A stretch of DNA of 33,357 nt, taken from positions 1 through 33,357 of the forward strand of contig DAIDIB010000010.1 in the NCBI GenBank assembly GCA_027459575.1, given 5' to 3'. Source of the stretch: Gammaproteobacteria bacterium. Lineage in GTDB: Bacteria > Pseudomonadota > Gammaproteobacteria > DSM-16500. The notes below the pieces were generated by a model. The model was not told where the DNA came from. It ran no database searches and saw nothing but the letters and a program-made list of their open reading frames with translations. Below are positions 1,308-30,446 of the stretch, one piece after another. Each line of letters starts with the position of its first letter. Position 1 is the stretch's first letter. A program made the translations under genes and the position numbers.

Positions 1308-1799
1308 ATGGAAGTATCTCATATCAAAAACACGGCAGGTTTCACCTTACTCGAACTCATTTTCGTATTGCTTATCATGAGCATTATAAGTGTGACAGTG
1401 ATGTTGCAATGGACAGCGTCAGGCATTGATCTCGGCGCGCAAGCCAAGGAGTTAGCCAGCGATATTCGCTACACGCAATCTTTGGCGATGACGAATGGAC
1501 AGCGCTATTATCTGATAAAACAATCTTCCACCACCTATCAAATTATGACGAGTGGCGGTACAGCAGTCATGCTGTTTAACGGCAGAACCACCGCCACACT
1601 TAACAGTGGCATTACTTTCGGTACCCTAACTAATTTGCCCAATAATCTAGTAGCCTTTGACGGCAAAGGCACGCCTTACACCACATCGTCCTCACCCGGC
1701 ACGGCGCTCACCTCAACCGCGACCATTCCAATAACATCAGGCGGCGCAACTAAAACCATTTCCATTCAACCCGGTACTGGGCGAGTAACCATCTCATGA
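1308..1799 (+). CDS. mshC: MSHA-type minor prepilin (MshC-like)
   Basis: 163 aa, first gene of the pilus operon. A type IV prepilin leader ends in Gly11, followed by FTLLELIFVLLIMSII: the mature protein starts with Phe and has Glu at position 5, the class III signal cleaved and methylated by prepilin peptidase. After the hydrophobic helix (about 12-32) comes a GspH/FimT-like region (AKELASDIRYTQSLAMTNGQRY), then a Ser/Thr/Gly-rich beta domain. ATG at 1308 is the only start, since the frame is closed upstream by a stop at 1284-1286. No ribosome binding site is visible because a palindromic element ends at 1300. The stop overlaps the next start (ATGA). The MshC assignment rests on the neighbouring mshD/O/P-like genes; sequence alone supports only 'GspH-type minor pilin'. 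Confidence 0.75.
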   Translation: MEVSHIKNTAGFTLLELIFVLLIMSIISVTVMLQWTASGIDLGAQAKELASDIRYTQSLAMTNGQRYYLIKQSSTTYQIMTSGGTAVMLFNGRTTATLNSGITFGTLTNLPNNLVAFDGKGTPYTTSSSPGTALTSTATIPITSGGATKTISIQPGTGRVTIS

Positions 1800-2182
1800 G
1801 GCGACAAAAAGGTTTTACTTTAATAGAAGTACTGATCCTGATTATCGTTGCCGGGATTACAGGAAGCGCTATAGTGCTCGCGTTGAGTACCGCTCTTCGA
1901 AGCACACCGCAGTTTTTGCAACATGGTATCGCGGGCCAGACAGCGAGAAATTGTATCGAATGGTTCATTGGGCAACGGCGTTTGATATTGGGTGATGGTT
2001 ACACCAGTATCACGTGCCCTAGTAGCACTGTTCCCGCATTTTGCACGGCACCTTCTGGATTTACCTTAGCGGTGAATGTAGCCTGCACTACTATTAATAG
2101 TGACGCCAATTATAAAACGATTACAGTCACGGTAAGTGGTAGTGGGGCTGCTACCTACTCAACCATGATCGCGGATTATTAA
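1796..2182 (+). CDS. mshD: MSHA-type minor prepilin (MshD-like)
   Basis: 128 aa, starting inside the stop of the preceding gene (ATGA overlap). The short leader MRRQKG is followed by FTLIEVLILIIVAGITG, a textbook prepilin cleavage site with Glu at mature position 5 and a hydrophobic helix to about residue 30. The small globular part contains three cysteines (encoded near 2018, 2042 and 2084) and a Thr/Ser-rich C-terminus. It is shorter than typical MshD. The assignment depends on its place between the mshC-like and mshO-like genes. Likely role: a minor subunit incorporated near the pilus tip. Confidence 0.7.
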   Translation: MRRQKGFTLIEVLILIIVAGITGSAIVLALSTALRSTPQFLQHGIAGQTARNCIEWFIGQRRLILGDGYTSITCPSSTVPAFCTAPSGFTLAVNVACTTINSDANYKTITVTVSGSGAATYSTMIADY

Positions 2183-2183
2183 T

Positions 2184-2663
2184 ATGCGAAGACAACAGCA
2201 AGGGTTCACATTGATTGAGTTTGTTATAGTAATTATTTTGCTGGGAGTCATCGCCATTGGCATCAATACTATCTATACACAATCACTGCTTGGCATGTTA
2301 GCCGGTCAAAACACATCGGACGCGCTCTGGCAAGGCCGGCTCGGCATGGAACGCATGATCAAGGAAATTCGCGCCACACGTTCAGCGGGTGATATCAGCA
2401 CCTTCACAAGCGGCGAATACAGCTTTACGGATATCAGCGGCAATAGCATCGACTATAAATTAAGTGGTGGTGGCTTGGTACGCAACGCTGTGCCACTAGC
2501 GGATGGTATCAGTTCTTTAGCATTCACTTACTATGACAAAAGCGGCAATACTACAGCAACGGCCGCCAATATTGAATATATAAAAATTTCTATGCACGTT
2601 ACGCAAAATAATACTAATTTTACACTCACGTCGGGTGTGTATTTGCGAGATCTGGCTTCATGA
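2184..2663 (+). CDS. mshO: MSHA-type minor prepilin (MshO-like)
   Basis: 159 aa, one nucleotide after the mshD-like stop. The leader ends in Gly, followed by FTLIEFVIVIILLGVIAIG (Glu at mature position 5). After the helix, the sequence DALWQGRLGMERMIKEIRATRS resembles the post-helix region of MshO/PilW-type minor pilins. This is followed by beta-rich sequence and a C-terminal LTSGVYLRDLAS that fits the '...VYLRN' ending common in this family. Its stop overlaps the start of the next gene by 4 nt, suggesting translational coupling. Confidence 0.75.
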   Translation: MRRQQQGFTLIEFVIVIILLGVIAIGINTIYTQSLLGMLAGQNTSDALWQGRLGMERMIKEIRATRSAGDISTFTSGEYSFTDISGNSIDYKLSGGGLVRNAVPLADGISSLAFTYYDKSGNTTATAANIEYIKISMHVTQNNTNFTLTSGVYLRDLAS

Positions 2664-4291
2664 ACAATCAACGTGGTTATTTAGTTATATTGGCGGTATT
2701 TCTGATTATGGTCACTGGTTTTATCGGTGTCACCATTGCTTCATTATTATTTGGTGGCGCAAATGAGACGCTTAATTATCAACAAGCTGAAAAAGCGCTT
2801 TATATCGCAGAAACAGGTTTTGAAACCGCCGCGCGTTTTGTATTAACACCCACACTCACGGGAACCAATACGCGAATTGGGTGTGGGTCACTTTCTGGAA
2901 ATTCCAACGTGACAAATACTACTTTTGGTTCCGGTACGTTTACCGCTACGGCTGTGGCGAGCAATCCGGTTTATGTCAACGCCACCTTAAGCAGTGCTAT
3001 CACAAGCGGCGCGACGACCATTCCATTGACCAGCACCACGGGATTCGCCTCTGCTGGTCGGGTGCGTATTGATATGGAAGACATTAATTACGGCGCGATT
3101 TCCGGCAATAGTCTGATTGCTGTAACACGAGGAGTTGAGGCGAGTTACGCGACACCACATGCCAGTGGCGCTGCTGTGACACAGTATCAATGTATGATAG
3201 ATGTCAAAGGTGGCATTCCAAATCTGACTTCAGCCACTTACAAACGTGAAATCAATCAAGCCATGCCACTGCAAGAAGCATGGGCGGTGGGCGCAGTGTC
3301 AGGCGGTAATTTTGAAATGACCCGATGGAACCGTCCAACAGAAGTAACGTGGACGAATAGCGCTATCTCTAGTACCTCGGCAGTTAACCTTAATGGTATT
3401 TCCATGCTTTCAAATGCGGATGGCTGGGCAGTAGGAGACGCTGGTTCGACAGATTTCACGTTATTGCACTGGAATGGCACGAGCTGGAACGCTTCATCCT
3501 TGGCCTTCGCCTGTTCTAACCAGAATCTCGCAGCCGTGTCGAGTGTCTATTCGAACGAAGCCTGGGCGGTTGGTAATAGTTATAAATCAAGCGGGAAGTG
3601 TACCGGCTCTGGGGGTAAGCAACGTTACACTATTTTACAATGGAACGGCACCAGCTGGTCTGAATTAACGCCTTCTACTGCGCCCAGTATTCCCGCGGAT
3701 AACATATCGAATCAAAATCTGAATGCGGTGCATGTCATCGACGCGACGCAAAGCGGTGCTGGCACACTGGGATTTGCGGTAGGTGCAGCTGGTGTAATAT
3801 TGCAATACGATGGCAGCAACTGGACGCCGGCAAGCAGTCCGACAACAGATGATTTAACCGGTATATACATCGTTTCCGCCACCGAAGCCTGGGCTGTGGG
3901 AGCAAATGGCACTATTATCAAATGGGATGGGAGCAGCTGGACAACCGTCTCTTCACCTACCAGCACACAATTGAATGCCATTACCATGGTCGACGCAACA
4001 CAGAGTGGTCATGCCACAGCTGGCTGGGCGGTCGGCAATAGCGGGGTTGCCATCAGTTATAATGGCACCAGCTGGTCTTCACAAAATACCGGCAGCGCTC
4101 AAAATCTTTTTGGCGTGGGTCTGTTTGGCATCGGCAAGGATGTCTGGGCGGGAGGCGCATCCGGGACACTCATGCATTGGGATGGCTCAGCCTGGTCAAG
4201 TATTTCTTCCGGTATAACGACACAAATAAACGCCTTATCGGTCATCGCGCCTCAGCAGTATCCTTCTGCCTGGCAGGAAATATATCCTTAA
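2660..4291 (+). CDS. PilX/MshP-like minor pilin fused to a seven-repeat beta-propeller domain; candidate tip adhesin
   Basis: 543 aa. Residues 1-60 are PilX_N/MshP-like: a short leader ending QRG, then YLVILAVFLIMVTGFIG, then a QQAEKALYIAETGFE helix. Mature position 5 is Leu, not Glu, as in GspK-type tip subunits. Residues about 105-175 form a beta module (TTIPLTSTTGFASAGRV...VTRGVEASYATPHASG) of a type seen in tail and pilus proteins. From about residue 205 to the end, the motif W/F-A-V/G-G followed 10-15 residues later by W-N/D-G-T/S-x-W recurs. I count seven AVG-type copies (EAWAVG, GWAVG, EAWAVG, GFAVG, EAWAVG, GWAVG, DVWAGG), which fits a seven-bladed propeller. The gene overlaps the mshO-like gene, so it is part of the pilus operon. 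Usual MshP is only about 150 aa, making this a large C-terminal extension. Adhesin function is inferred. Confidence 0.8.
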   Translation: MNNQRGYLVILAVFLIMVTGFIGVTIASLLFGGANETLNYQQAEKALYIAETGFETAARFVLTPTLTGTNTRIGCGSLSGNSNVTNTTFGSGTFTATAVASNPVYVNATLSSAITSGATTIPLTSTTGFASAGRVRIDMEDINYGAISGNSLIAVTRGVEASYATPHASGAAVTQYQCMIDVKGGIPNLTSATYKREINQAMPLQEAWAVGAVSGGNFEMTRWNRPTEVTWTNSAISSTSAVNLNGISMLSNADGWAVGDAGSTDFTLLHWNGTSWNASSLAFACSNQNLAAVSSVYSNEAWAVGNSYKSSGKCTGSGGKQRYTILQWNGTSWSELTPSTAPSIPADNISNQNLNAVHVIDATQSGAGTLGFAVGAAGVILQYDGSNWTPASSPTTDDLTGIYIVSATEAWAVGANGTIIKWDGSSWTTVSSPTSTQLNAITMVDATQSGHATAGWAVGNSGVAISYNGTSWSSQNTGSAQNLFGVGLFGIGKDVWAGGASGTLMHWDGSAWSSISSGITTQINALSVIAPQQYPSAWQEIYP

Positions 4292-4358: not shown

Positions 4359-5345
4359 ATGAAAGTAGCATCGCAAGTTGAATCGTACGCAAAAAAACTG
4401 ATAAAGAAGTTTGAACCATGGCTCAGTGATTCAGCACCGCTTGATGCTACCCAGCGCATTTGTTTAAGCTTTACCGGGAATGTAATTTCATTATTACAAA
4501 TCAATAAAAGCACTGACAATGTTGATATCCTGCTGAACGAAGACATTGAATTTGATAGCACAGAAAATCTCACTACGTTGCTGACTGGCATCAATAAGCG
4601 CTATCGACTCGAAAATGTTCCAGCTTACTGGTTGCTGTCACCCGAAGATTATCAATTATTTTTTATCGACGCTTTGCCCGTCAAAAGCGATGAGTTTCAA
4701 GACGCCCTTAACTGGCGTTTGCGTACATTAGTCAACTACCCTATTCAGGAAGCAGCGTCGGATTATTTCATGTTACCGGCAAAAAAAGGCGCCTCCAATC
4801 AGCCGATGGCGGTGGCTGTCACCGCGCGCAAACAGGAACTGCAAAAAAATATTGATATCTTTGAAAAAGCCGGCATCGCACTGACCGCCATTGACATACC
4901 GGAGCTGGCCATGCGGAATTTATCCACCACATGCGAAAACGACGAAAAAAGTACGGCGTTTTTATATTTTTATAACAACATGGCGATACTGAATTTAACG
5001 CGTCAAAAAATTCTTTATTTTAACCGCCGCATTACCATCACGCAGAATGATCGAACAGCGCCAGGTTTTTATGAAAAAATGAGCCTGGAAATTTTGCGCT
5101 ACTTCGATTATTTCCAAAGCCAATGGCGTTATCCCAGCCCGAGCCGGTTTTTCATCGCCGCACATGATGGCAAAACAGATCACATCATCGCGGGTCTTGG
5201 CAAGCATTTGATGACACAGCTTGAACCCTTTCCTTTGTCCAGGATCATTGTCGATCAAAGTAAAGCGTCGCAATTAACTGGTTCGCTGTTATCACTGGGC
5301 ACGGCGCTGCGACAGGAGGAAACGAATGTTACGGCAAGACATTAA
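4359..5345 (+). CDS. mshI: MSHA biogenesis protein MshI (PilM-like cytoplasmic assembly protein)
   Basis: 328 aa, soluble, with no membrane segment. It fits the PilM/MshI actin-like family: a beta-rich N-terminal part (CLSFTGNVISLLQI), then AYWLLSPEDYQLFFIDALPV, then a WRLRTLVNYPIQEAASDYFMLP stretch, then DIPELAMRNLSTT and a C-terminal ATPase-like subdomain. In type IV pilus systems this protein couples the cytoplasmic ring to the PilN/PilO-like inner-membrane proteins, which are encoded immediately downstream. An AGGGA ribosome binding site lies 8 nt before ATG 4359. The end overlaps the pilN-like gene by 20 nt. Confidence 0.85.
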   Translation: MKVASQVESYAKKLIKKFEPWLSDSAPLDATQRICLSFTGNVISLLQINKSTDNVDILLNEDIEFDSTENLTTLLTGINKRYRLENVPAYWLLSPEDYQLFFIDALPVKSDEFQDALNWRLRTLVNYPIQEAASDYFMLPAKKGASNQPMAVAVTARKQELQKNIDIFEKAGIALTAIDIPELAMRNLSTTCENDEKSTAFLYFYNNMAILNLTRQKILYFNRRITITQNDRTAPGFYEKMSLEILRYFDYFQSQWRYPSPSRFFIAAHDGKTDHIIAGLGKHLMTQLEPFPLSRIIVDQSKASQLTGSLLSLGTALRQEETNVTARH

Positions 5346-5943
5346 CTTATATACAGCGTTCAAATCTTCCTCTCCCGTACTGGAGATTTTAACCTGGAAA
5401 CAGATGGTATTGAGCAGCGTTGGATTTTTACTATTATTAATATTTAGTTATATACTAAGTATCAGTGATTTGTTCTATAAAAAGTACGAGTTGCATAGCC
5501 TTAATAATGATATCGTTCGTCTTCAATCACAGTTCGAATATAAAAAATCGCACTATCCTTCCTTCTTTTTCTCGGACAATGTTGCCAAAGTGGTGGCCGA
5601 TCAGGAAAAAGACATGCAAATGGAAGCGCAGCTGCTCGAAAACATTGCGACACGTATTACGTTTTCAAATATTTTATTGACCTTGGCCGAAATCAAGCTG
5701 CCAAGCAACTGGATTACCAAAATAAATATTGACGAAAGCGGAAATGTCGTGGAATTAACTGGAAACTCACTTTCCATGCCTGACTTAAAATTATATTTTA
5801 CTCAAATTGAAAACAATCCTTATTTTAAAAATGCTCATGTGACCATCAACAGCGTTGAACACAAGCCCAAAGACAATTACCCCGATTTTCAAACCTACAT
5901 GATTAGCATTGCGAAGACTCAAAATGAAAAATCAAATTCTTAG
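5326..5943 (+). CDS. PilN-like inner-membrane pilus assembly protein
   Basis: 205 aa. It opens with LRQDINLY, the short N-terminal motif (variant of 'INLLP') by which PilN proteins bind PilM, then one transmembrane helix at about 26-46 (MVLSSVGFLLLLIFSYIL). A coiled-coil-prone stretch follows (YELHSLNNDIVRLQSQFEYKK), then a ferredoxin-like periplasmic domain ending near IDESGNVVELTGNSLSMPDLKLYF, the PilN C-terminal pattern. It overlaps mshI upstream and mshJ downstream. In some MSHA systems this gene is called mshI2. Confidence 0.82.
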   Translation: MLRQDINLYTAFKSSSPVLEILTWKQMVLSSVGFLLLLIFSYILSISDLFYKKYELHSLNNDIVRLQSQFEYKKSHYPSFFFSDNVAKVVADQEKDMQMEAQLLENIATRITFSNILLTLAEIKLPSNWITKINIDESGNVVELTGNSLSMPDLKLYFTQIENNPYFKNAHVTINSVEHKPKDNYPDFQTYMISIAKTQNEKSNS

Positions 5944-6550
5944 ATTAAGAACCTGGTTTGAACAGCTTTCGCTACGCGAGCGGGCGCTTTTTGCTTTGTT
6001 AGTCTGGGCAGTCATCTATGCGTTTTTCGGCCTTATATTTTTAAGACCGGTGAATAACCAGCGCGCGGTATTTCAGGATAATATAAAACAAGCGCAAGAC
6101 AAAATTAACAGTCTGAATTTACAAATCGACGCAGTTGATAAAATCGCCAGTAGTGCGTTGTACCTTGAATGGCAGAAGCAACATGCCAACTACGAAAAAA
6201 TTCAAATACGATATAAAACATTGTTGACTAACTTTTCCTCGAGTAATTGGCTTCAGATCATTAAATCTGTCATTGCCAGTCATCCCAACATCACGCTCAC
6301 TCACATTGAAAACTCGCAGGAGTCGCCTTTTACCTTAGGTAGCACACTCGTCAGTGAAGGTATCTTTCAACAAAACTTGACCGTAATGGTTTATGGTGAT
6401 TACTTTAATTTTATCAATTACTTAGAGCATATTGAAAAATTGCTGCCCAATGTTCGCTGGGACACGCTTAACTATGAAGTGATTACCTATCCGACGGCAA
6501 AAATTACCATGGAATTTACTGTATTTTATGTTAACCCAATTAAAAGCTAA
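5924..6550 (+). CDS. mshJ: MSHA biogenesis protein MshJ (PilO-like)
   Basis: 208 aa from ATG 5924. A TTG 15 nt earlier gives a longer frame but lacks a better ribosome binding site. One membrane helix (about 20-42, LRERALFALLVWAVIYAFFGLIFL) follows a short cytoplasmic head. Next come a coiled coil (QDNIKQAQDKINSLNLQID) and a PilO-like ferredoxin fold with a YFNFINYLEHIEKLLPNVRWD segment. The first 20 nt overlap the pilN-like gene, and the end overlaps mshK, so translation is probably coupled. Role: periplasmic alignment of the inner-membrane platform with the secretin. Confidence 0.83.
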   Translation: MKNQILRLRTWFEQLSLRERALFALLVWAVIYAFFGLIFLRPVNNQRAVFQDNIKQAQDKINSLNLQIDAVDKIASSALYLEWQKQHANYEKIQIRYKTLLTNFSSSNWLQIIKSVIASHPNITLTHIENSQESPFTLGSTLVSEGIFQQNLTVMVYGDYFNFINYLEHIEKLLPNVRWDTLNYEVITYPTAKITMEFTVFYVNPIKS

Positions 6551-6905
6551 AATAGTTGCCATAATAATGGTCATCATGCCATTAATGGGTGCAACGGTGA
6601 TCAACAAGAGTGCTCTGCACGATCCCACTGAGCCTCCTCCTGATTTTATGCCCGCTGTCAAAAACAATGAAATCAGTTATCGAAGCATGAATCTTAACGC
6701 TATCTTCATTAAACCTAATGCTCGCTGGGCGGTAATCAATGGCCAAGTGTACCATGAGGGCGATGCGGTGGGCGAATATATCATTACAAACATTCACGTA
6801 GATACGGTAGAATTAATCGATTCAGCTCACAACAAAGAAGTATTAGAATTGGTGACTCCCATTAAAAAAATGGTGGTCCCGGCTAAGGAAAGTAGGGATG
6901 AATGA
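6528..6905 (+). CDS. mshK: MSHA biogenesis protein MshK
   Basis: 125 aa. An N-terminal signal or anchor (about 1-22, KIVAIIMVIMPLMGATV) is followed by ALHDPTEPPPDF, the 'DPTRPP' motif typical of MshK. Then comes a GspC/PilP-like small beta domain (LNAIFIKPNARWAVINGQVYHEGDAVGEYIIT...VELI). It starts 23 nt inside mshJ and its stop overlaps the mshL start. No independent ribosome binding site was seen. Expected role: periplasmic protein contacting the secretin. Confidence 0.82.
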   Translation: MLTQLKAKIVAIIMVIMPLMGATVINKSALHDPTEPPPDFMPAVKNNEISYRSMNLNAIFIKPNARWAVINGQVYHEGDAVGEYIITNIHVDTVELIDSAHNKEVLELVTPIKKMVVPAKESRDE

Positions 6906-8673
6906 AAGAGTAAATGGATGTTTAAAATTGTTAGCCGGATTTATCATAGGCTGCTTTGCCGCGTTTCTTGCCAGCTGCCATATTCAACACCCCACGCATA
7001 AAACGTCTATTCAGCAAAGTGAAAGTATCCTGGGACAAAGTATTCGACAAAACGAAAAACTGTCGGCCAAAGGATCCCGGCCACCAGCCAATCTAAATTC
7101 TGCCATGCTGCCATCGTTGTCGCATTATGTTAATCCTGTTAATCGAACGCAGGCACGTTTTGACATATCTGCCAATAAAATTCCCGCGCGTGAATTTTTT
7201 ATGAGTCTGGTTGCCGGTACAGACTATAACATGATAGTAAGCCCAAACATTTCCGGCAGCATTTCACTGGAACTCAAAAATGTGACTATCCGTCAAACGC
7301 TTGAAGCGGTGCGAGATGTTTATGGCTATGATTTTCGTCAAACCTCATATGGTTTTGAAGTAGCGCCACCACAATTACAAACTCGGCTATTTCATATTAA
7401 TTATCTCGACGTTGAACGCAGTGGCAAGTCTTATATTCAACTAACCACTGGCCAAGTCAGTAATGTGGTCGGTTCAACTACCGCGGGTGGGACACTAAAC
7501 ACACCTTATCCTGCCACGCCCTTACCGGGAAATGGCGCGCCAAATGGAACGGATACCATTAGCAGCATTGAAACAAAAAGCGAAATGAAGTTCTGGGAAC
7601 ACATCGAAAAAACAATTAATGGCATGATGGGTAAAGAAGACGGCCACGCTGTGACAGTTAACGCGCAGACAGGCATCATTTCCGTGCGCGGTTTCCCCGC
7701 AGAGTTGAATCAGGTAGCACGATACGTCAATAGTTTGCAGTCCAGTTTAAACCGGCAAGTCATATTGGAAGCTAAAATTCTCGAAGTCCAGTTGAATGAT
7801 GAGTATCAGGCAGGTGTGGACTGGAGTATTTTAGGTAACCCAGCAAATGACGCTGTTGATGCAAATGGCAACTTGATTGATAACAGTGCCGGCCTTGGTC
7901 AGGACGCTATCAAACAATTTGCTGATAGCAATCTGAAAGATTTTACCGGAATCTTTGCCTTCCGCGTAAAAGGTAACTTTAAAGTGTTGGTGCAGTTACT
8001 GCAAAGTCAGGGGAACGTGCAAGTATTATCAAGCCCACATATTTCAACGGTTAATAACCAAAAAGCGGTTATCAAAGTTGGACAGGATCAATTTTTTGTT
8101 ACCGGTGTGTCAACTTCCAACACTATCATTGGCACTAATACACTTCCTTCACAAAACGTCACGCTCACACCGTTTTTCTCTGGCGTCACGCTCGATGTCA
8201 CGCCTGAAATCAGCAGTGACGATACAGTCGTGCTGCATATTCACCCAAGTGTCAGCCTGGTACAAGAGCAAATAAAAGAAATTGGTTTGGGAACCAGCGC
8301 AACCGGTACGCCAAATAATCTAACTCTGCCACTTGCGCAAAGTACCATCCGTGAATCGGACAATATTGTGCGGGCTAAAAACGGTCAAACCGTCGTGATC
8401 GGAGGTTTGATGCAGAATAATACCGCTGAAACAGTTGTATCCACGCCATGGCTTGGAAAGCTGCCGTTTATTGGCTCCTTGTTCCGCCGCACCGTGCAAA
8501 ATTCAACCAAGTCCGAGCTGATTATTCTACTGCGACCTACTGTCGCAACAAATCGTAACTTTACGAATGAGATGAAAGAATCAAAGAGTCGTTTCCAGAA
8601 AATACAGCGTCCCTTCCATGAAGGCAGCTTGCCCAAAATATTTGGCAATGAAGCTGAATGCGTAGATGACTAA
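6898..8673 (+). CDS. mshL: MSHA pilus secretin MshL (outer-membrane lipoprotein)
   Basis: 591 aa. A lipoprotein signal peptide ends in the lipobox LASC (Cys27). An STN/secretin N0 domain follows (about 85-160, FDISANKIPAREFFMSL...RQTLEAVRDVYGYDF), then an N1-like domain with NSLQSSLNRQVILEAKILEVQL, and a C-terminal secretin barrel. The barrel contains VQVLSSPHISTVNNQKAVIKVG and the secretin signature GQTVVIGGLMQN, then TPWLGKLPFIGSLFRR, then a terminal ILLRPT. Length and domain order are normal for the family. It forms the outer-membrane gate through which the pilus exits. AAGGA-type ribosome binding site; overlaps mshK by 8 nt. Confidence 0.93.
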   Translation: MNERVNGCLKLLAGFIIGCFAAFLASCHIQHPTHKTSIQQSESILGQSIRQNEKLSAKGSRPPANLNSAMLPSLSHYVNPVNRTQARFDISANKIPAREFFMSLVAGTDYNMIVSPNISGSISLELKNVTIRQTLEAVRDVYGYDFRQTSYGFEVAPPQLQTRLFHINYLDVERSGKSYIQLTTGQVSNVVGSTTAGGTLNTPYPATPLPGNGAPNGTDTISSIETKSEMKFWEHIEKTINGMMGKEDGHAVTVNAQTGIISVRGFPAELNQVARYVNSLQSSLNRQVILEAKILEVQLNDEYQAGVDWSILGNPANDAVDANGNLIDNSAGLGQDAIKQFADSNLKDFTGIFAFRVKGNFKVLVQLLQSQGNVQVLSSPHISTVNNQKAVIKVGQDQFFVTGVSTSNTIIGTNTLPSQNVTLTPFFSGVTLDVTPEISSDDTVVLHIHPSVSLVQEQIKEIGLGTSATGTPNNLTLPLAQSTIRESDNIVRAKNGQTVVIGGLMQNNTAETVVSTPWLGKLPFIGSLFRRTVQNSTKSELIILLRPTVATNRNFTNEMKESKSRFQKIQRPFHEGSLPKIFGNEAECVDD

Positions 8674-8685
8674 AGGATAATCCGT

Positions 8686-9588
8686 ATGTACGAAAATTTT
8701 TTTCAGCTAACATCGATGCCTTTCAATCTGACGCCGAACCCTGTTTTTTTCTGTCAGCTCAAGGGGCATCAGGAAGCGCTTAATATCTTGCAGTTCTGCA
8801 TTAAAAGTGGCGAAGGTTTTATTAAAATCATCGGCGAAGTGGGTTCTGGAAAAACATTACTATGTCGTAAATTGCTGGAAAGCCTCGACGAACAGTATGT
8901 CACCGCCTACATCCCTAATCCTGATTTGTCCCCCATTGAAATGCGTAAAGCATTTGCACGTGAACTGGGGCTTGATCCCGCCGCCTGGCAAGATCAACAT
9001 GAGCTGTTAACCGCGATTTACCAACATTTAATTACGCTGCACGCCGCCGGAAAAAAAGTTATTTTGCTGATTGATGAGGCACAAGCGCTAAGTGACGAAA
9101 GCCTTGAGACGGTGCGCCTGCTCACTAATCTTGAAACTGAAAATTCCAAACTATTACAGGTTATATTGTTTGGGCAACCAGAGTTGAATGAGCGGCTTAA
9201 CAAGGCTCATTTACGTCAATTAAAACAACGCATCACCTTTTCCTATAATTTGCCATTAATGAATCGTGAAGATCTCGATATTTATTTGTTTCATCGCTTG
9301 CGCATTGCGGGCAGCGTCCAAAGTAACCTGTTTTCCAGGAAAGCACGCAACATATTGCATCAGGCAAGCAGTGGCATCCCGCGTATCGTCAACATCCTGT
9401 CGCACAAGGCTATGCTGGTGGCCTATGGTCGTGGCAATAAGCAGATTGACCATAAAATTATGCGTCTGGCGGTCAAGGACACGGACGTGGCTATTAAATT
9501 CAGGCGTTACTCGCAGTTAAAATATGCGGCTTATATACTTATCGGCGGTTTAGGATTAACCGCTGCCATTTTACTCTTGGGAAGTTGA
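8686..9588 (+). CDS. mshM: ExeA-like AAA+ ATPase MshM
   Basis: 300 aa. The opening YENFFQLTSMPFNLTPNPVFF is the ExeA/MshM N-terminal signature. Walker A is GEVGSGKT (about 51-58), Walker B is VILLIDEAQAL (about 125-135), and GIPRIVNILSHKAML is the sensor-2-like segment. A single C-terminal membrane helix (about 280-299) ends the protein. It lacks the peptidoglycan-binding domain present in ExeA itself. It starts 12 nt after mshL with an AAGGA ribosome binding site. Likely helps place or assemble the secretin. Confidence 0.9.
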   Translation: MYENFFQLTSMPFNLTPNPVFFCQLKGHQEALNILQFCIKSGEGFIKIIGEVGSGKTLLCRKLLESLDEQYVTAYIPNPDLSPIEMRKAFARELGLDPAAWQDQHELLTAIYQHLITLHAAGKKVILLIDEAQALSDESLETVRLLTNLETENSKLLQVILFGQPELNERLNKAHLRQLKQRITFSYNLPLMNREDLDIYLFHRLRIAGSVQSNLFSRKARNILHQASSGIPRIVNILSHKAMLVAYGRGNKQIDHKIMRLAVKDTDVAIKFRRYSQLKYAAYILIGGLGLTAAILLLGS

Positions 9589-9593
9589 GTGCA

Positions 9594-10844
9594 ATGAGTC
9601 TAATCAATCAAATGCTCAAAGACTTGGAAAAGCGTAAAGACCGGGAACAAACCATAACCTCCATTCCCATCATCCAGACTTTTGATTCTGATCATATATC
9701 ATCCCGCTCGAAAATTATCACTGGGGTTATTATTGCCTCTTTATTGCTAGTCTTGATCTCTTTCGTTCAGTCGTTTTTTACTAGCAAACATCAGAGCATA
9801 CAAACCATACAAAAAGATAAACCCGCGCTTGTCACGCAAAATGTCGCGCCAATGATAGATAACTCCTTGCTTACGCCAGTTAATATTACCGGCATTACGG
9901 TGCAAACCAGAGAAAATATAACTGAAATAACCTTTATGCTGAATCATCCCGCGCTTTATGAATTAACCAGCAACAATATGCAAAATCAACTGGTTCTTAC
10001 TATTGAAAAGTCGCAATTACTGACAGAAATTCCGCCCGCGCATTTTATGAATGACGCTATTCAATCACTAAACGCCAGCGAAATGAATGGCGATATGCGC
10101 TTCAATCTGACACTTAATGCCAATGCGGCGCTAAAATATGTCAACCTGAATACTGACAATAAAAATCCCGAACTTGTCATTGCGATTGAAAATCGCGCTG
10201 CTGACACGCACAACATATCGATACAACACAACGCGGCGATTAAAACGCCCGCCGCACAAAGTTTGCTATTACAGAAATACCAAATCGCGCTTGAGGAAGC
10301 TAAACTTGGCAAGCTACAACAGGCCATTTCTAATCTTTCCGCTTTGCTTGAAGTGGATCCCGAATATCAAGATGCCCGCACAACCTTAGCCGCTTTGCTC
10401 ATAGACAAAGGCAACACGCCGCAAGCAACCAGGATTGTTAATGATGGGTTAAATATTTTTCCGGATTATGCGCCATTTGTTGAGCTAAAAGCCAGATTGC
10501 TGACGCATGATGGCAAAATCCAGCAAGCCTTGAATTTATTACAAAGCGCTGTACCACCTATCTCGGAAAATCCGGACTATCACGCACTCATCGCTGCCTT
10601 GTATGAACGCAGCAATAAAGATTTATTCGCGGTTCGCACTTATCAAAAATTGCTGGCGATTGACCCTCATAATGGCAGCTGGTGGTTTGGCCTTGCTGTC
10701 TCTTACGACAAATTAGGTAAAACGCGCGATGCCGCCACTGCTTATGAACGTGCCCAGTCGGAAGGTCATTTAAACACTGCTTCGCTTGCTTATCTGCAAA
10801 AGCGACTTGAATCGTTGCAGGAGGCACAAAATGATAAAACCTAG
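9594..10844 (+). CDS. mshN: MSHA biogenesis protein MshN (TPR protein)
   Basis: 416 aa from ATG 9594, giving MSLINQMLKDLEKRK, the conserved MshN opening. A TTG at 9585 adds three residues but is less likely. A membrane helix (about 39-60) is followed by a periplasmic beta-rich AMIN-like region (ITGITVQTRENITEITFMLNHPALYEL). Tetratricopeptide repeats cover about residues 220-410 (YQIALEEAKLGKLQQAISNLSALLEVDP and later units). It nearly abuts mshM, and its 3' end overlaps mshE by 14 nt. TPR scaffolds of this kind are thought to link inner- and outer-membrane parts of the machine. Confidence 0.87.
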   Translation: MSLINQMLKDLEKRKDREQTITSIPIIQTFDSDHISSRSKIITGVIIASLLLVLISFVQSFFTSKHQSIQTIQKDKPALVTQNVAPMIDNSLLTPVNITGITVQTRENITEITFMLNHPALYELTSNNMQNQLVLTIEKSQLLTEIPPAHFMNDAIQSLNASEMNGDMRFNLTLNANAALKYVNLNTDNKNPELVIAIENRAADTHNISIQHNAAIKTPAAQSLLLQKYQIALEEAKLGKLQQAISNLSALLEVDPEYQDARTTLAALLIDKGNTPQATRIVNDGLNIFPDYAPFVELKARLLTHDGKIQQALNLLQSAVPPISENPDYHALIAALYERSNKDLFAVRTYQKLLAIDPHNGSWWFGLAVSYDKLGKTRDAATAYERAQSEGHLNTASLAYLQKRLESLQEAQNDKT

Positions 10845-12528
10845 AAAGACGTATATCGCGGAAATGCTGCTTGGTAAAAATCTTATTACCCGGGAGCAAT
10901 TAGACAAGGCAATGGAAGAGCAAAAGAAATCTGACAAAAAAATCGGTCAGATTCTGATTGATCTCGGCTACATTGATGAAACCAAATTGTTGCATCTCGT
11001 TGCCGAACAACTGCACATTCCTTATATTGATGTAAAAAATTATCCTTTGGATCCCGCGATAGTAAAGGTTCTACCGGAATTTTACGCGCGGCACTATCGC
11101 GCAATTGTCTTAAAACACGACGAAAATAGTTATCTGGTAGGCATGGCCGATCCGCAAGATCTGTTTGCTCACGATGAAATACAACGTCAGCTTAATAGTA
11201 ATTTTTCGCTGGCTTTGATTCGCGAAGAAGATCTAGTCGACGTGCTTGACGCCATTTACCGACGCGCCGATGAAATTTCTCATTTTGCCGAGACGCTTTC
11301 GGCGCAAATGAAACCTGATGCCCAGGATATTTTTGCCAACATTCAAGACTTGAACGCCGCTGATATTCCTGTCGTCAATCTCATTCGCTCTATTTTTGAA
11401 GACGCCGTGCAAGTCGGCGCTTCCGATATTCACATTGAACCAGACAAGAGTGTCATGCATATCCGCTTGCGAGTAGACGGCGTGTTGCAGGAACAAACGC
11501 TTGAAGATAAAAACATCAGTCAACCGCTGGTGCAACGTATCAAGTTAATTTCTGGCTTAAATATCGCTGAAAAGCGACTGCCACAAGATGGTCGATTTAC
11601 CATTACTGTCAAAGGTAAAACGTTTGATATTCGTGTTTCAACTCTCCCTACGCAATATGGTGAGTCACTGGTGATGCGTTTGCTCAACCAGTCAGATGCG
11701 TTATTACAATTAGATCAAGTAGGCATGCCTGAAAAAATTCTGGATTATTATAAACATGCAATTACGAGCTCCTACGGCTTGATCTTGTTTGTGGGCCCGA
11801 CTGGTTCGGGTAAATCAACCACTTTATACTCTACTTTAAACACTATCAACTCACCCGACGATAAAATTATTACGGTTGAAGACCCAGTAGAATACCGGCT
11901 GCCTCGTATTAACCAGGTACAAGTGAATCCGACCATCGGACTCACTTTCGCTTCCATTTTGCGTTCTATTTTACGCCAGGATCCGGACATCATTATGATC
12001 GGTGAAATGCGTGACCAAGAAACCATGGAAATCGCGTTACGAGCCGCCATGACCGGTCATTTGGTGTTTGCTACCTTGCATACAAATGACACCATCAGCG
12101 CCGCGACGCGTTTACTCGATATGGGCGCGAAAGGCTATCTGGCAGCCAGTGTGTTGCGTGTCATCGTCGCGCAGCGTCTGGTGCGCGAAATTTGCGACAA
12201 ATGCATTACCGACGACCCACTCACTGAAGCTGAGCGCATCTGGCTTAAATCGTTTGGTAAACATGAATTTGCCGATGTTATGTTCAAGCATGGCAAAGGT
12301 TGCTCTCACTGCCATCATACAGGTTATCGAGGGCGTCATGGTGTGTTTGAACTGCTACCCATCAGTGAGGAATTAGCTGATGCCATGCGCGTAAACAATT
12401 CGAGTCTGTTCCATCATCTTGCCAGCAAACAACCTTTATATCGACCACTGGTACTTGCGGGTCTGGATTTGGCCGCGACAGGCATTACCACAGTACAGGA
12501 AGTCATTCGCATGACGGGTGAGATTTAA
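10831..12528 (+). CDS. mshE: MSHA pilus extension ATPase MshE (GspE family)
   Basis: 565 aa from ATG 10831, preceded by a strong GGAGG. An earlier TTG is a frame extension only. Domains: MshEN N-terminal cyclic-di-GMP module (about 1-150) and GspE/PilB ATPase (about 170-560). The ATPase has Walker A GPTGSGKST (about 323-331), a Walker B region DPDIIMIGEMRD, ATLHTND (His box), and a zinc tetracysteine (CDKC at about 454, CSHC at about 491). Of the two 24-residue MshEN motifs, the second (KIGQILIDLGYI...AEQ) is close to consensus. The first (YIAEMLLGKNLI...EEQ) lacks the leading Arg and both glycines. ATP-driven polymerisation should therefore be intact, while cyclic-di-GMP control may be altered. 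Confidence 0.92.
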   Translation: MIKPRKTYIAEMLLGKNLITREQLDKAMEEQKKSDKKIGQILIDLGYIDETKLLHLVAEQLHIPYIDVKNYPLDPAIVKVLPEFYARHYRAIVLKHDENSYLVGMADPQDLFAHDEIQRQLNSNFSLALIREEDLVDVLDAIYRRADEISHFAETLSAQMKPDAQDIFANIQDLNAADIPVVNLIRSIFEDAVQVGASDIHIEPDKSVMHIRLRVDGVLQEQTLEDKNISQPLVQRIKLISGLNIAEKRLPQDGRFTITVKGKTFDIRVSTLPTQYGESLVMRLLNQSDALLQLDQVGMPEKILDYYKHAITSSYGLILFVGPTGSGKSTTLYSTLNTINSPDDKIITVEDPVEYRLPRINQVQVNPTIGLTFASILRSILRQDPDIIMIGEMRDQETMEIALRAAMTGHLVFATLHTNDTISAATRLLDMGAKGYLAASVLRVIVAQRLVREICDKCITDDPLTEAERIWLKSFGKHEFADVMFKHGKGCSHCHHTGYRGRHGVFELLPISEELADAMRVNNSSLFHHLASKQPLYRPLVLAGLDLAATGITTVQEVIRMTGEI

Positions 12529-12530
12529 TC

Positions 12531-13751
12531 ATGCAGCATTATTCTTATCGCGGCAGGGATAAGGAAGGCCGCCTTAAAATTGGCGAGCGCATCAGCGAAT
12601 CTCCTGATAATCTCAGCGCCGCGCTGATTAAAGAAGGCATCACGCCAGTCAGCATCGAATTAATAAAAACTCGCACGGGCTTCTGGAGCAGCCTTTCTGA
12701 TCGCCTGCTTGGCGAGCAAGCCAAACTAGATGAACTTTCCATTTTTTCTCGTCAAATGCAATTACTAAATAAAGCCGGTGTGCCTATTGTTTCGGCGCTG
12801 CATCAACTGGCTGCCAATACTCGCAGTCGACAATTTGCCTTGGCACTGGATGGTGTGGCGGATAATCTGGCAAAAGGCACTAGCATGGCATCATCCATGC
12901 GTTTATATCCCAATATTTTTTCAACACTGATGGTTAACATTGTAGACATTGGTGAAACAACTGGTCATTTAAGCGAAGCGTTTGGGTATTTGTATGAATA
13001 TCTGGAATTTGAATCTTCCAGCATTAAGCAATTCAAAACCGCGTTTCGCTACCCCATGTTTGTGCTTATCTCGATTTTTGTTGCTATTGCCATTTTAAAT
13101 ATTTTTGTCATACCGACGTTTGCAAAATTTTATTCTGGACTCAATGTTGAGCTGCCGTGGCAAACACGTTTTATTATTGACGTTTCCAGTGTGGTTGTTA
13201 ATTATGGTTATTTGATACTTGCCGGATTAATAATAGGCGTCATTTGGTTATATAAATATATTCACACGCCTAATGGCAAATATAAGTGGGACAAGCTGCA
13301 ATTGCGCATCCCGATTTTTGGCAAATTACTAAAACGCATCATCATCATCCGTTTTTGTCAATCTTTGGAGATCGTGCTTAAATCCGGTATTGCGGTCAAT
13401 CAGGGACTGGCGCTAGTTTCAAACACTATTACCAATGCCTATATCAATCGTCAGATTCTGGATATGCAAGCTTCTATCGAGCGGGGTGTGTCATTTACGA
13501 ATGCTATTAGCAAAATAGAACTTTTTAGTCCTCTGGAAATTCAGATTCTGGCTGTCGGCGAGAAAAATGGTGAGTTATCTCCGGCCCTGGACTTTATCTC
13601 CAAGTTCTATAACCAGGAAATTCAATATGACTTAAAACGTCTAAGTGACATGATTGGCCCCATCATGCTCGCGGCCATAGCGGTTTTGGTATTAATTATT
13701 GCTTTGGGTGTTTATTTACCAATATGGAATATGATAAATTTAAAGCATTAG
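12531..13751 (+). CDS. mshG: MSHA inner-membrane platform protein MshG (GspF/PilC family)
   Basis: 406 aa. It contains two GspF domains, each beginning with a phenylalanine-led helical bundle: FSRQMQLLNKAGVPIVSALHQLA near 65-90 and RFCQSLEIVLKSGIAVNQGLAL near 270-295. Three membrane helices lie at about 175-195, 225-243 and 380-401. The VGEKNGELSPALDFISKFYNQEI stretch is characteristic of the family. It starts 2 nt after mshE. It is the rotor/platform through which MshE drives pilin insertion. No mshF or mshB follows; the major pilin comes next. Confidence 0.92.
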   Translation: MQHYSYRGRDKEGRLKIGERISESPDNLSAALIKEGITPVSIELIKTRTGFWSSLSDRLLGEQAKLDELSIFSRQMQLLNKAGVPIVSALHQLAANTRSRQFALALDGVADNLAKGTSMASSMRLYPNIFSTLMVNIVDIGETTGHLSEAFGYLYEYLEFESSSIKQFKTAFRYPMFVLISIFVAIAILNIFVIPTFAKFYSGLNVELPWQTRFIIDVSSVVVNYGYLILAGLIIGVIWLYKYIHTPNGKYKWDKLQLRIPIFGKLLKRIIIIRFCQSLEIVLKSGIAVNQGLALVSNTITNAYINRQILDMQASIERGVSFTNAISKIELFSPLEIQILAVGEKNGELSPALDFISKFYNQEIQYDLKRLSDMIGPIMLAAIAVLVLIIALGVYLPIWNMINLKH

Positions 13752-13773: not shown

Positions 13774-14148
13774 ATGAAGTCTAGTTACCGTTCGCAGGGT
13801 TTCACGTTAATTGAATTAGTCATCGTCATAGCCATTATTGGTATTCTGGCGGCTGTCGCTATTCCAAACTACATTAATATTTCTGGTAATGCTCAAATTG
13901 CCGCCACCAATGCTATTGCTGGCGCATTGTCTGCCGCTAATGCCAGTAACTATGCTGCTCGTAACCTAAGTAATACTTTTGGGGTGGCAGTAGCTAATTG
14001 CACGGATGTTGCCAGCACGTTACAGGGAGGCTTGCCCACTGGCTACACTATCACTGCTGCAACGATAGCAGTGGGCGCATCAGTAAGCTGCACTTTGACT
14101 GGGCCAAGCTCGTCGACGGCTGTCTTTACTGCAACCGGGATAACCTAA
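13774..14148 (+). CDS. mshA: Major type IV pilin, MshA-like, copy 1
   Basis: 124 aa. The 9-residue leader ends in Gly, then FTLIELVIVIAIIGILAAVAIP: canonical type IVa prepilin with Glu5. The helix spans about 10-38 and continues as an amphipathic segment (TNAIAGALSAANASNYAARN). The small globular domain has two cysteines (NCTD and SCTL) spaced for a disulfide loop, and a Ser/Thr-rich end. Ribosome binding site AGGGAAG. It sits 22 nt after mshG, the usual place for the pilin at the end of the assembly block. It is shorter than the Vibrio MshA pilin (about 170-180 aa). Confidence 0.9.
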   Translation: MKSSYRSQGFTLIELVIVIAIIGILAAVAIPNYINISGNAQIAATNAIAGALSAANASNYAARNLSNTFGVAVANCTDVASTLQGGLPTGYTITAATIAVGASVSCTLTGPSSSTAVFTATGIT

Positions 14149-14158
14149 AAGGTAATTT

Positions 14159-14533
14159 ATGTCATCTAAATCAAAACAAAGCGGCTTTACCTTAATAGAG
14201 TTGGTTATCACAATCGCTATTATTGGTATCTTGGCGGCTGTCGCTATTCCAAAATTTATTAACTTATCTAGCACCGCGCAGACTAATACAACCAATGCCA
14301 TCGCTGGCGCGCTTTCCGCAGCTAATGCAAGCAACTACGCTGCACGCAAACTCAGCTCCAGTCTGGGTGTGGCAGTAGCAAACTGTACCGACGTCGCGAG
14401 TACTTTACAAAGTGGGTTACCCACGGGTTATACCATTACCGCTGCAACGGTGGCGGTGGATGCGACTGTCACTTGCACCTTGACAGGGCCAAGCTCCTCG
14501 ACAGCGACATTTACCGCGACGGGGATAACTTAA
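14159..14533 (+). CDS. mshA: Major type IV pilin, MshA-like, copy 2
   Basis: 124 aa, a tandem paralogue of the preceding pilin: by hand count 99 of 124 residues are identical with no gaps. Substitutions cluster in the leader, just after the hydrophobic helix (residues about 32-44) and around the second half of the Cys loop. The helix, ALSAANASNYAAR and both cysteines are unchanged. At nucleotide level many synonymous third-position changes are visible, so the duplication is not recent and both copies have been kept under protein-level constraint. AAGGT ribosome binding site; 10-nt gap to copy 1. Last gene of the operon. Confidence 0.9.
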   Translation: MSSKSKQSGFTLIELVITIAIIGILAAVAIPKFINLSSTAQTNTTNAIAGALSAANASNYAARKLSSSLGVAVANCTDVASTLQSGLPTGYTITAATVAVDATVTCTLTGPSSSTATFTATGIT

Positions 14534-14739: not shown

Positions 14740-15432
14740 TCAACAGTAAATCTCTTCGCAATTAATTCCACCCAAATGACACATCCCATCCAAAAACTTC
14801 CACTGTGCCGCCGCGGCGCGCTCAGTCGCTTTTGCAGCTGCTTCTGGCTCAACATATTTCTCGATTAACTCTGCCACTTTACGTGAATGCTCCACATCAT
14901 AAGTCTGATGCGCGGTGAAAAATGCTAGTGTCGCTTCATCGGAAATACCATAAAACTTTTTCAGCCCTTCAATTTTAGAGGCTGATACCCCTGGCACTTG
15001 TGATTCGTACGCATAAAGCGCGCATAGACCATCACGCCAGTCTTGTTCCGCTAACTGATCAAATGTATCGACCAGCGCTTTGGTTTCATCAAGCAGCACT
15101 TCTTTATGCACTGCGTCACGCGAAATGCCTAAACCTTCCGCGAATTGCATCCATAAAGCAGGGTGATCTGTGCCATGCAATTCTTCGTCCGCCAGATTTT
15201 CCAACAACACCTTACGCACATTAATGGGATATTGAAAATCATCACTTCTGCGGCATTTGGCATAAGCTGTTGCAATGAAACAGGGAAATGAACTGACTTG
15301 ATGATAATACTGCGCTGCGTAACGCTGCAGAATATCACGGCTTAACTCACCCGCCGACCAGGCCTGGTAAAAGGTATGTTTTAACAAATCATATTTGGCG
15401 ATAATGTCGTTTAAACGAGTGATGAGTTGCAT
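14740..15432 (-). CDS. CADD/NE1434-type p-aminobenzoate synthase (PqqC-like fold)
   Basis: 230 aa, a TenA/PqqC-like helical bundle. The match to Chlamydia CADD is in residue spacing: Glu83-x6-His90; Tyr142-Glu143 with Lys153 ten residues later; and His175-x3-Asp179-x2-His182. These reproduce the dinuclear-metal ligands and the lysine reported for CADD (E81/H88/E142/H174/D178/H181 and K152). Tyr22 and Tyr38 match the tyrosines proposed as the self-sacrificed substrate. Proteins of this family supply p-aminobenzoate for folate without PabABC by consuming a residue of their own chain. The C-terminal tail (Ala-rich, then CHLGGINCEEIYC) is cysteine-rich and outside the conserved core. AGGAG ribosome binding site 8 nt upstream. 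I see no folate genes nearby. Confidence 0.85.
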   Translation of the reverse strand: MQLITRLNDIIAKYDLLKHTFYQAWSAGELSRDILQRYAAQYYHQVSSFPCFIATAYAKCRRSDDFQYPINVRKVLLENLADEELHGTDHPALWMQFAEGLGISRDAVHKEVLLDETKALVDTFDQLAEQDWRDGLCALYAYESQVPGVSASKIEGLKKFYGISDEATLAFFTAHQTYDVEHSRKVAELIEKYVEPEAAAKATERAAAAQWKFLDGMCHLGGINCEEIYC

Positions 15433-29760: not shown

Positions 29761-30186
29761 TTAAATTAATAATTTCAATCCCAGCACATTAGCTGCTTTA
29801 TTTAACCGCTGATCAAAACAGGCAAACGTGACAGGCTGGCTCGATTGCCTGAATAACAGAACAGCGGCAGCTAAATGAACGCTGTCATAAGCTCGTAGTG
29901 CAAATACGTCAACAAGGTCAACCGCAAGTTGCATTAGATTTTTACTATTTTCAACTTGCAAATAATTTTCCCAATCATGAGTAAAAGATGTTTTAGTCGC
30001 ATTATATTCGTGCTCATTGATTTTCTTTTCTCGTTTTAAACGGGAAAATGCAGCGTGCGCTTCTACAAATGCAATAAGATGCGTTGCCACAATATCCGTG
30101 CTTTTCATTTTCGCAATAACTTCAGCACTATGAATTTCCGAGATATAAGCTTTTACTAAAGCGGATGTATCCAAATAAAGAATCAT
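29761..30186 (-). CDS. PIN-domain ribonuclease toxin (VapC-like)
   Basis: 141 aa, normal PIN length. The four acidic active-site positions are present: Asp6 (YLDTS), Glu42 (FVEAHAAF), Asp101 (YDSVHLA) and Asp125 (CFDQRL). VapC toxins cleave RNA, often initiator tRNA, and are held inactive by the antitoxin. The start overlaps the antitoxin stop by 4 nt, as usual for these pairs. The gene ends 9 nt from the boundary palindromic element. Confidence 0.88.
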   Translation of the reverse strand: MILYLDTSALVKAYISEIHSAEVIAKMKSTDIVATHLIAFVEAHAAFSRLKREKKINEHEYNATKTSFTHDWENYLQVENSKNLMQLAVDLVDVFALRAYDSVHLAAAVLLFRQSSQPVTFACFDQRLNKAANVLGLKLLI

Positions 30187-30446
30187 CCTCTATCCTCGAT
30201 GACGTAATCAGAGGTAGTATTTCCTGATACTTTAGGTGCGTTTTTCGCGCCTTTGGGTTTTTTACCATTCCAATGTATGCCTTCCATTTGCAAGATCGCC
30301 TGTACGTCCTTGTCTTTAGATTTAGGAATAGATACCAACCTGGCCATTGGAACATGATGGCAAGTGATAATAATAGACTCGCCCGTTTCAATATAATGAA
30401 GATATTTAGAAAGATGATTTTTAAGTTCTCGTACAGAGACCTGCAT
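30183..30446 (-). CDS. Phd/YefM-type antitoxin (VapB-like)
   Basis: 87 aa. The opening MQVSVRELKNHLSKYLHYIETGESIIIT...RLVSI is the Phd/YefM dimer and DNA-binding fold. The basic, flexible C-terminus (GKKPKGAKNAPKVSG) is the likely toxin-wrapping part. A strong AGAGGAGG ribosome binding site lies upstream. It probably represses its own promoter through the operator at 30,462-30,499. Confidence 0.87.
   Translation of the reverse strand: MQVSVRELKNHLSKYLHYIETGESIIITCHHVPMARLVSIPKSKDKDVQAILQMEGIHWNGKKPKGAKNAPKVSGNTTSDYVIEDRG

Follow-up and report, generated by a model that had tools for sequence, protein, structure and literature searches.

A K-type minor pilin joined to a predicted YCF48-like propeller in MSHA pilus loci of Gammaproteobacteria

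Background

Type IV filaments are capped by four minor pilins (PMC10191384), and in S. sanguinis minor pilins of modular build serve as tip adhesins (PMC8179133, PMC9934059). Modular pilins as a kind are already known: a 2021 survey reports 264 architectures, found by starting from the motif IPR012902, and warns that many will have been missed (PMC8179133). For the MSHA pilus, MshQ has been described as a putative adhesin (PMC7096442), MshM, MshQ and MshF figure among the pilus components whose function is unknown (PMC9815625), and a review from 2023 omits the system from its table of machineries as too poorly characterised (PMC10191384). Extension of the MSHA pilus by MshE is known to depend on c-di-GMP (PMC9815625).

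The window, that is, the whole stretch of DNA analysed here, comprises 33,357 nucleotides of a gammaproteobacterial assembly and contains a gene in which a minor pilin and a predicted propeller form a single product, here termed a propeller-pilin. In the part of the literature searched, which included the main text of the 2021 survey, neither a fusion of a pilin to YCF48 or another propeller nor a pilin replacing MshQ was found; an earlier mention is possible.

The pilin part and the middle domain

The propeller-pilin gene (2660-4291) shares 4 bases with the pilin ORF in front of it (2184-2663) and is the fourth of an H-I-J-K minor pilin operon, an order that recurs in relatives (Table 1). Its 543 aa product starts with MNNQRG, a prepilin-type leader, followed by YLVILAVFLI at the beginning of a helix without Glu5. 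The first-pass annotation had taken the product for a minor pilin lacking this residue, and the relatives bear this out: the leader ends in Gly, position +5 is Leu, Val, Ile or Ala in 18/18 and Glu in 0/18, and position +1 is Tyr or Phe. All three upstream pilins carry Glu5 (GFTLLE, GFTLIE and GFTLIE). The PilX_N profile PF14341 scored E 0.33 on the window protein and E <= 0.01 on 3 of 18 members, the best at 1.5e-4. PF07963, the Pfam motif matching IPR012902, was not reported for the 543 aa protein or for its 17 relatives, and an NCBIfam profile search of the protein returned no match. Surveys that start from a motif would overlook this class of modular pilins. Judged by sequence, from the short Gly-ended leader, the predicted hydrophobic helix, the absence of Glu5 and the position as fourth gene of the operon, the product is a type IV minor pilin of the K type.

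Between the pilin helix and the propeller lies a middle domain of approximately 140 residues, absent from the first-pass annotation, which holds two invariant cysteines (Cys75 and Cys178). Its residues 106-193 matched a phage virion structural protein family (PHROG, phrog_4406) marginally, at E 5e-4. A profile of the pilin and middle parts yielded only sub-threshold pilin matches in the PDB (MshA, 9lab, E 0.058) and, at E 0.59, a minor tail protein of a phage.

Table 1. Features of the pilus locus in the window and parts of the propeller-pilin
Feature	Position	Strand	Basis
Minor pilin H (GspH/FimT type), Glu5 present	1308..1799	+	PF12019, PF07963
Minor pilin I (PilV type), Glu5 present	1796..2182	+	PF07963, weak TIGR02523
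Minor pilin J (PilW/MshO type), Glu5 present	2184..2663	+	PF07963; type by position
Fusion of minor pilin (K/PilX/MshP position) and predicted seven-bladed propeller	2660..4291	+	543 aa, ATG start, unbroken ORF
Prepilin leader MNNQRG (residues 1-6)	2660..2677	+	Gly6 invariant in 18 relatives; putative cleavage after Gly6
Long N-terminal pilin helix, no Glu5 (residues 7-53)	2678..2818	+	AlphaFold2 helix 3-53
Middle domain (about residues 60-201)	2837..3262	+	conservation; GRVxID-E-xNY...VTRG motif; low pLDDT
Predicted seven-bladed propeller, YCF48-like (residues 205-531)	3272..4252	+	predicted strands, fold match, profile match
MshI (PilM-like)	4359..5345	+	PF11104/TIGR01175, weak
PilN-like	5326..5943	+	PF05137
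MshJ (GspM/PilO-like)	5909..6550	+	PF04612
MshK (PilP/GspB-like)	6528..6905	+	PF16537 sub-threshold; position
MshL secretin	6898..8673	+	TIGR02519 262 bits, cut-off 250
MshM-type AAA ATPase	8686..9588	+	PF13401; TIGR03015-like below cut-off; name by position
MshN-type TPR protein	9585..10844	+	PF14559; name by position
MshE extension ATPase with c-di-GMP-binding N-terminal domain	10786..12528	+	TIGR02538; NF053729 57.7 bits, cut-off 38
MshG platform protein	12531..13751	+	PF00482
MshA-like major pilin 1, 124 aa, tandem copy	13774..14148	+	PF07963
MshA-like major pilin 2	14159..14533	+	PF07963

The predicted propeller

The C-terminal part of approximately 340 aa was found to contain seven [WF]A[VG]G anchors (shuffled sequences, n=5000: mean 0.06, maximum 2) and six [WYF][ND]G[ST][SAN]W turns (shuffles: mean 0.002, maximum 1), and a blade HMM recognised exactly seven units in it. 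The seven repeats of AVG / W-(N/D)-G-x-x-W type reported in the first-pass annotation were recovered, far above shuffled expectation. Among the members the blade HMM counted seven units in almost all, the copies with fewer being L023 and L059 (six each) and that of Legionella (five).

AlphaFold2 placed 28 strands at residues 206-528, arranged as 3 + 6x4 + 1 closing strand, which corresponds to seven four-stranded blades; seven blades had been proposed from repeat counting. As the input alignment consisted of 14 sequences with close relatives left out, confidence was low at residues 40-204. Residues 205-531 of the model aligned over 274 residues with the whole of 7bid, a designed and solved seven-bladed propeller (VIA-align Z 31.2, 2.3 A). 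Foldseek ranked YCF48 first, and the best fold matches were YCF48 together with designed or WD40 propellers. With no structure used, the family profile matched the Ycf48 chain 8am5_S at E 1.1e-7; a family profile was needed because a PDB search with the window protein as a single sequence gave no match even at E 10. PF14870 was matched in only 1/18 members. Taken together, the model and the profile match predict a closed seven-bladed propeller that is YCF48-like in both sequence and fold. A second model, that of the Thiogranum fusion (L023), had two weak blades, and about residues 104-447 aligned to propellers with Z up to 22.5; this model supports a propeller but not a blade count, as its top matches vary.

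Free, unfused relatives of the propeller occur in many phyla, and the gene product is a modular pilin, a pilin part joined to a domain that is not specific to type IV pili. Most of the invariant residues in the family are structural Trp and Gly positions. Blade 1 carries the nearly invariant residues N224, P226 and E228 (WN-x-P-T-E) where the other blades have the W-D-G-x-x-W turn, and these three are a candidate ligand site.

Operon context and association with MshL

The secretin exceeded the TIGR02519 cut-off for MshL and the extension ATPase exceeded the NF053729 cut-off for its c-di-GMP-binding domain, and by these profiles the locus can be assigned to the MSHA pilus system. The major pilin genes at 13774-14533 are two very similar MshA-like genes in tandem. 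Adjoining the pilus cluster, a TENA/haem-oxygenase-like protein, perhaps of the CADD kind, is encoded at 14740-15432. Elsewhere in the window, a small toxin-antitoxin pair with a Phd/YefM antitoxin and a PIN-domain partner lies at 29761-30446.

Conservation of the fusion within MSHA loci, named in the first-pass annotation as the expected support, was evident across many genomes. Within the window's family the pilin gene and a strong MshL occurred together in 18 genomes (G025 included), neither was present in 15, and 2 genomes had just one of them (Fisher p 8e-8); 12 of the pilin-MshL pairs share a contig, at distances of 3.3-5.0 kb. Outside the family, MshL was present in 11/12 verified fusion genomes, ten of which have it no more than about 10 kb away on one contig. 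Exceptions were a fusion with no strong MshL in G050, another in G017, a genome 76% complete, and MshL with no fusion match in G013. In G017 and G018 a gene for a PilT-like ATPase, recognised by its N-terminal sequence, directly adjoins the fusion gene (L008:3068-4198, L016:495-1550).

Distribution and history of the fusion

Among 36 genomes searched from the window's family, 18 have the fusion gene without interruption, mostly in fourth place behind three pilin genes; a nineteenth, G025, has the pilin part with a different C terminus. A class-wide profile scan recovered full-length fusions with the middle domain in four further families (f17, f93, f38, f136) and fusions lacking the middle domain but retaining the propeller in six (f153, f82, f103, f81, f123, f146). 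The spread thus extends to eleven gammaproteobacterial families, in addition to a Thiogranum MAG (L023) and Legionella adelaidensis. A candidate fusion in G353 was rejected, its ORF ending at the contig edge before any pilin part.

In L. adelaidensis (NZ_LR134433.1) the fourth of four pilin genes encodes 563 aa with 29% identity over its length (WP_058462971.1, whose sole annotation is 'type II secretion system protein'). It is followed, in the window's order, by genes for PilM-like and PilN-like proteins, MshL, an AAA ATPase and a GspE-type ATPase. The record, named 'plasmid 24', holds this msh-type operon with its propeller-pilin at L081:10681-22105; uvrB and genes for cytochrome oxidase lie on it as well.

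Codon comparison gave a pN/pS of about 0.24, with synonymous sites near saturation, and purifying selection in the propeller was no weaker than in the pilin. In the propeller tree all 30 fused sequences fell on one side of a branch with 100/99 support and the 14 others opposite; the tree rests on a repeat alignment with free propellers recruited by similarity, and as such it fits a single origin of the fused propellers. The fusion is real, old, widespread and unannotated.

A different C-terminal part follows the same pilin and middle parts in a pilin of L020 (1501-2778) that occupies the same place in the operon, and L054, L055 and L056 are similar; to the eye this module reads like beta-helix repeats. 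Such module exchange corresponds to what has been described as 'graft' behaviour in modular pilins (PMC8179133).

MshQ and PilY1

MshQ, sought through DUF6701 (PF20419), was found in 0/36 genomes of the family, the window's genome included, and in 0/13 further genomes in which the fusion or its propeller occurs (G353 is counted among these despite its cut ORF). The same search detected MshQ in 20/104 genomes of the class, all 20 of them MshL-positive. Set against a comparison set of at most 45 other MSHA genomes, MshQ occurred in 0/12 fusion genomes versus 20/45 (Fisher p 0.005; by family p 0.009), an exclusion that rests on modest numbers of related genomes since many fusion-free MSHA genomes also lack MshQ. 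The MshP-like frame of an MshQ genome can be short: in G069 it spans 154 aa, and MshQ follows downstream, on the same strand, after approximately 1.5 kb. In G096 an MshQ-like chain (L077:1492-4818) contains repeats of the same propeller type ahead of DUF6701.

The first-pass annotation had compared the fusion with PilY1, a comparison that calls for correction. PilY1 (PF05567) was found in 0/36 family genomes, the control being positive in 61/114 genomes of the class. Seven of the 13 distant genomes with the fusion nevertheless possess PilY1 independently, while none possesses MshQ, which rules out PilY1 as the replaced counterpart; the propeller, moreover, is YCF48-like and not a PilY1 domain. 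MshQ seems to be the counterpart that the propeller-pilin replaces.

Proposed role of the propeller-pilin

K pilins without Glu5 cap the minor-pilin complex, as is established for GspK. The explanation preferred here, with a probability of roughly 0.6, is that the protein is a one-piece tip module of the MSHA pilus, in which a capping K-position pilin bears the propeller as an adhesive head in place of MshQ; the tip adhesin or sensor in one piece suggested in the first-pass annotation is thus still the likeliest interpretation. Prepilin peptidase would cleave after Gly6, and the four minor pilins H-I-J-K would form a priming complex. Because it lacks Glu5, the propeller-pilin would sit outermost in this complex, and its propeller would be the first part extruded through MshL. 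Located at the tip, the propeller would act as a ligand-binding head and mediate adhesion, the role ascribed to MshQ in other MSHA pili, and would be deployed when MshE, with its c-di-GMP-binding domain, drives extension.

Instead of a head for outside ligands, the propeller might be a structural part of the priming or tip complex and serve as a platform by which the minor pilins are stabilised. The conserved C-terminal propeller of PilY1 interacts with minor pilins (PMC8833165), deletion of mshQ reduces surface MSHA, so that a tip protein can matter for assembly (PMC7096442), and, as noted above, most of the invariant residues are structural. That the same pilin part ends in a seemingly unrelated module at the corresponding locus of L020 and L054-L056, however, fits an exchangeable effector better than a fixed assembly part, and distant fusions keep the propeller although they lack the middle domain; the platform role is considered unlikely.

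A pseudopilus-like filament that secretes protein or handles DNA, with a propeller that recognises secreted cargo or DNA, would be in keeping with the kinship of the MSHA and T2SS machineries, the HIJK complexes of the latter being thought to recognise effectors (PMC10191384), and with the annotation of the Legionella copy. MshL, MshE with its c-di-GMP domain and the MshA-like major pilins nevertheless mark an MSHA pilus, in a genome that holds several other secretin genes, and make a role in secretion or DNA handling improbable.

Many propellers are enzymes. A glycosidase or lyase-like enzyme displayed in this way would be carried by the pilus to a polymer surface, but neither the protein nor its members matched any enzyme family profile and the top fold matches were YCF48, designed or WD40 propellers, which leaves very little room for this possibility. 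That an assembly join or frameshift united two genes, the fault envisaged in the first-pass annotation, can be dismissed, as none was found and the uninterrupted fusion recurs under purifying selection in many independent genomes, spread over 18 genomes of the family, ten further families, Legionella and the Thiogranum MAG.

A broader scheme may be put forward tentatively, at somewhat below even odds. MSHA pili would have two tip types, one with a separate MshQ and a small MshP and one in which a single propeller-pilin combines the two; this latter type would have arisen once and spread over more than ten gammaproteobacterial families, Legionellaceae included, and its propeller would bind a defined surface ligand. 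Were this true, the propeller-pilin would be a one-piece MSHA tip adhesin. The composition of the MSHA tip is poorly known, and a conserved propeller-pilin where MshQ is missing offers an answer that can be tested in cultured L. adelaidensis.

Comparison with known systems

The best natural match of the propeller by fold and profile, YCF48/HCF136, shares the seven-bladed propeller but is a photosystem II assembly factor with no pilin part. PilY1/PilC resembles the window protein as a T4aP tip protein with a C-terminal propeller that acts with four minor pilins; it is, however, not joined to a pilin, starts with a type I signal peptide and carries PF05567, whereas the window protein has a prepilin-like N terminus and a fold match to YCF48. 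MshQ of Vibrio cholerae (PMC7096442) shares the MSHA context, being a large MSHA-associated protein with its gene near mshP, and the MshQ of G096 holds the same propeller type; MshQ is nevertheless a separate protein with DUF6701, whereas in the window the propeller lies within the pilin itself. PilB and PilC, modular type IV pilins of S. sanguinis, likewise join a pilin N terminus to a grafted C-terminal functional domain and have been assigned to the tip and to adhesion (PMC8179133, PMC9934059). Their modules are a vWA domain and a ConA-like lectin, Glu5 is retained in each, and they belong to a monoderm T4P; unlike them, the window protein carries a predicted YCF48-like propeller, by way of a middle domain, on a K-type pilin that lacks Glu5 and is part of an MSHA system.
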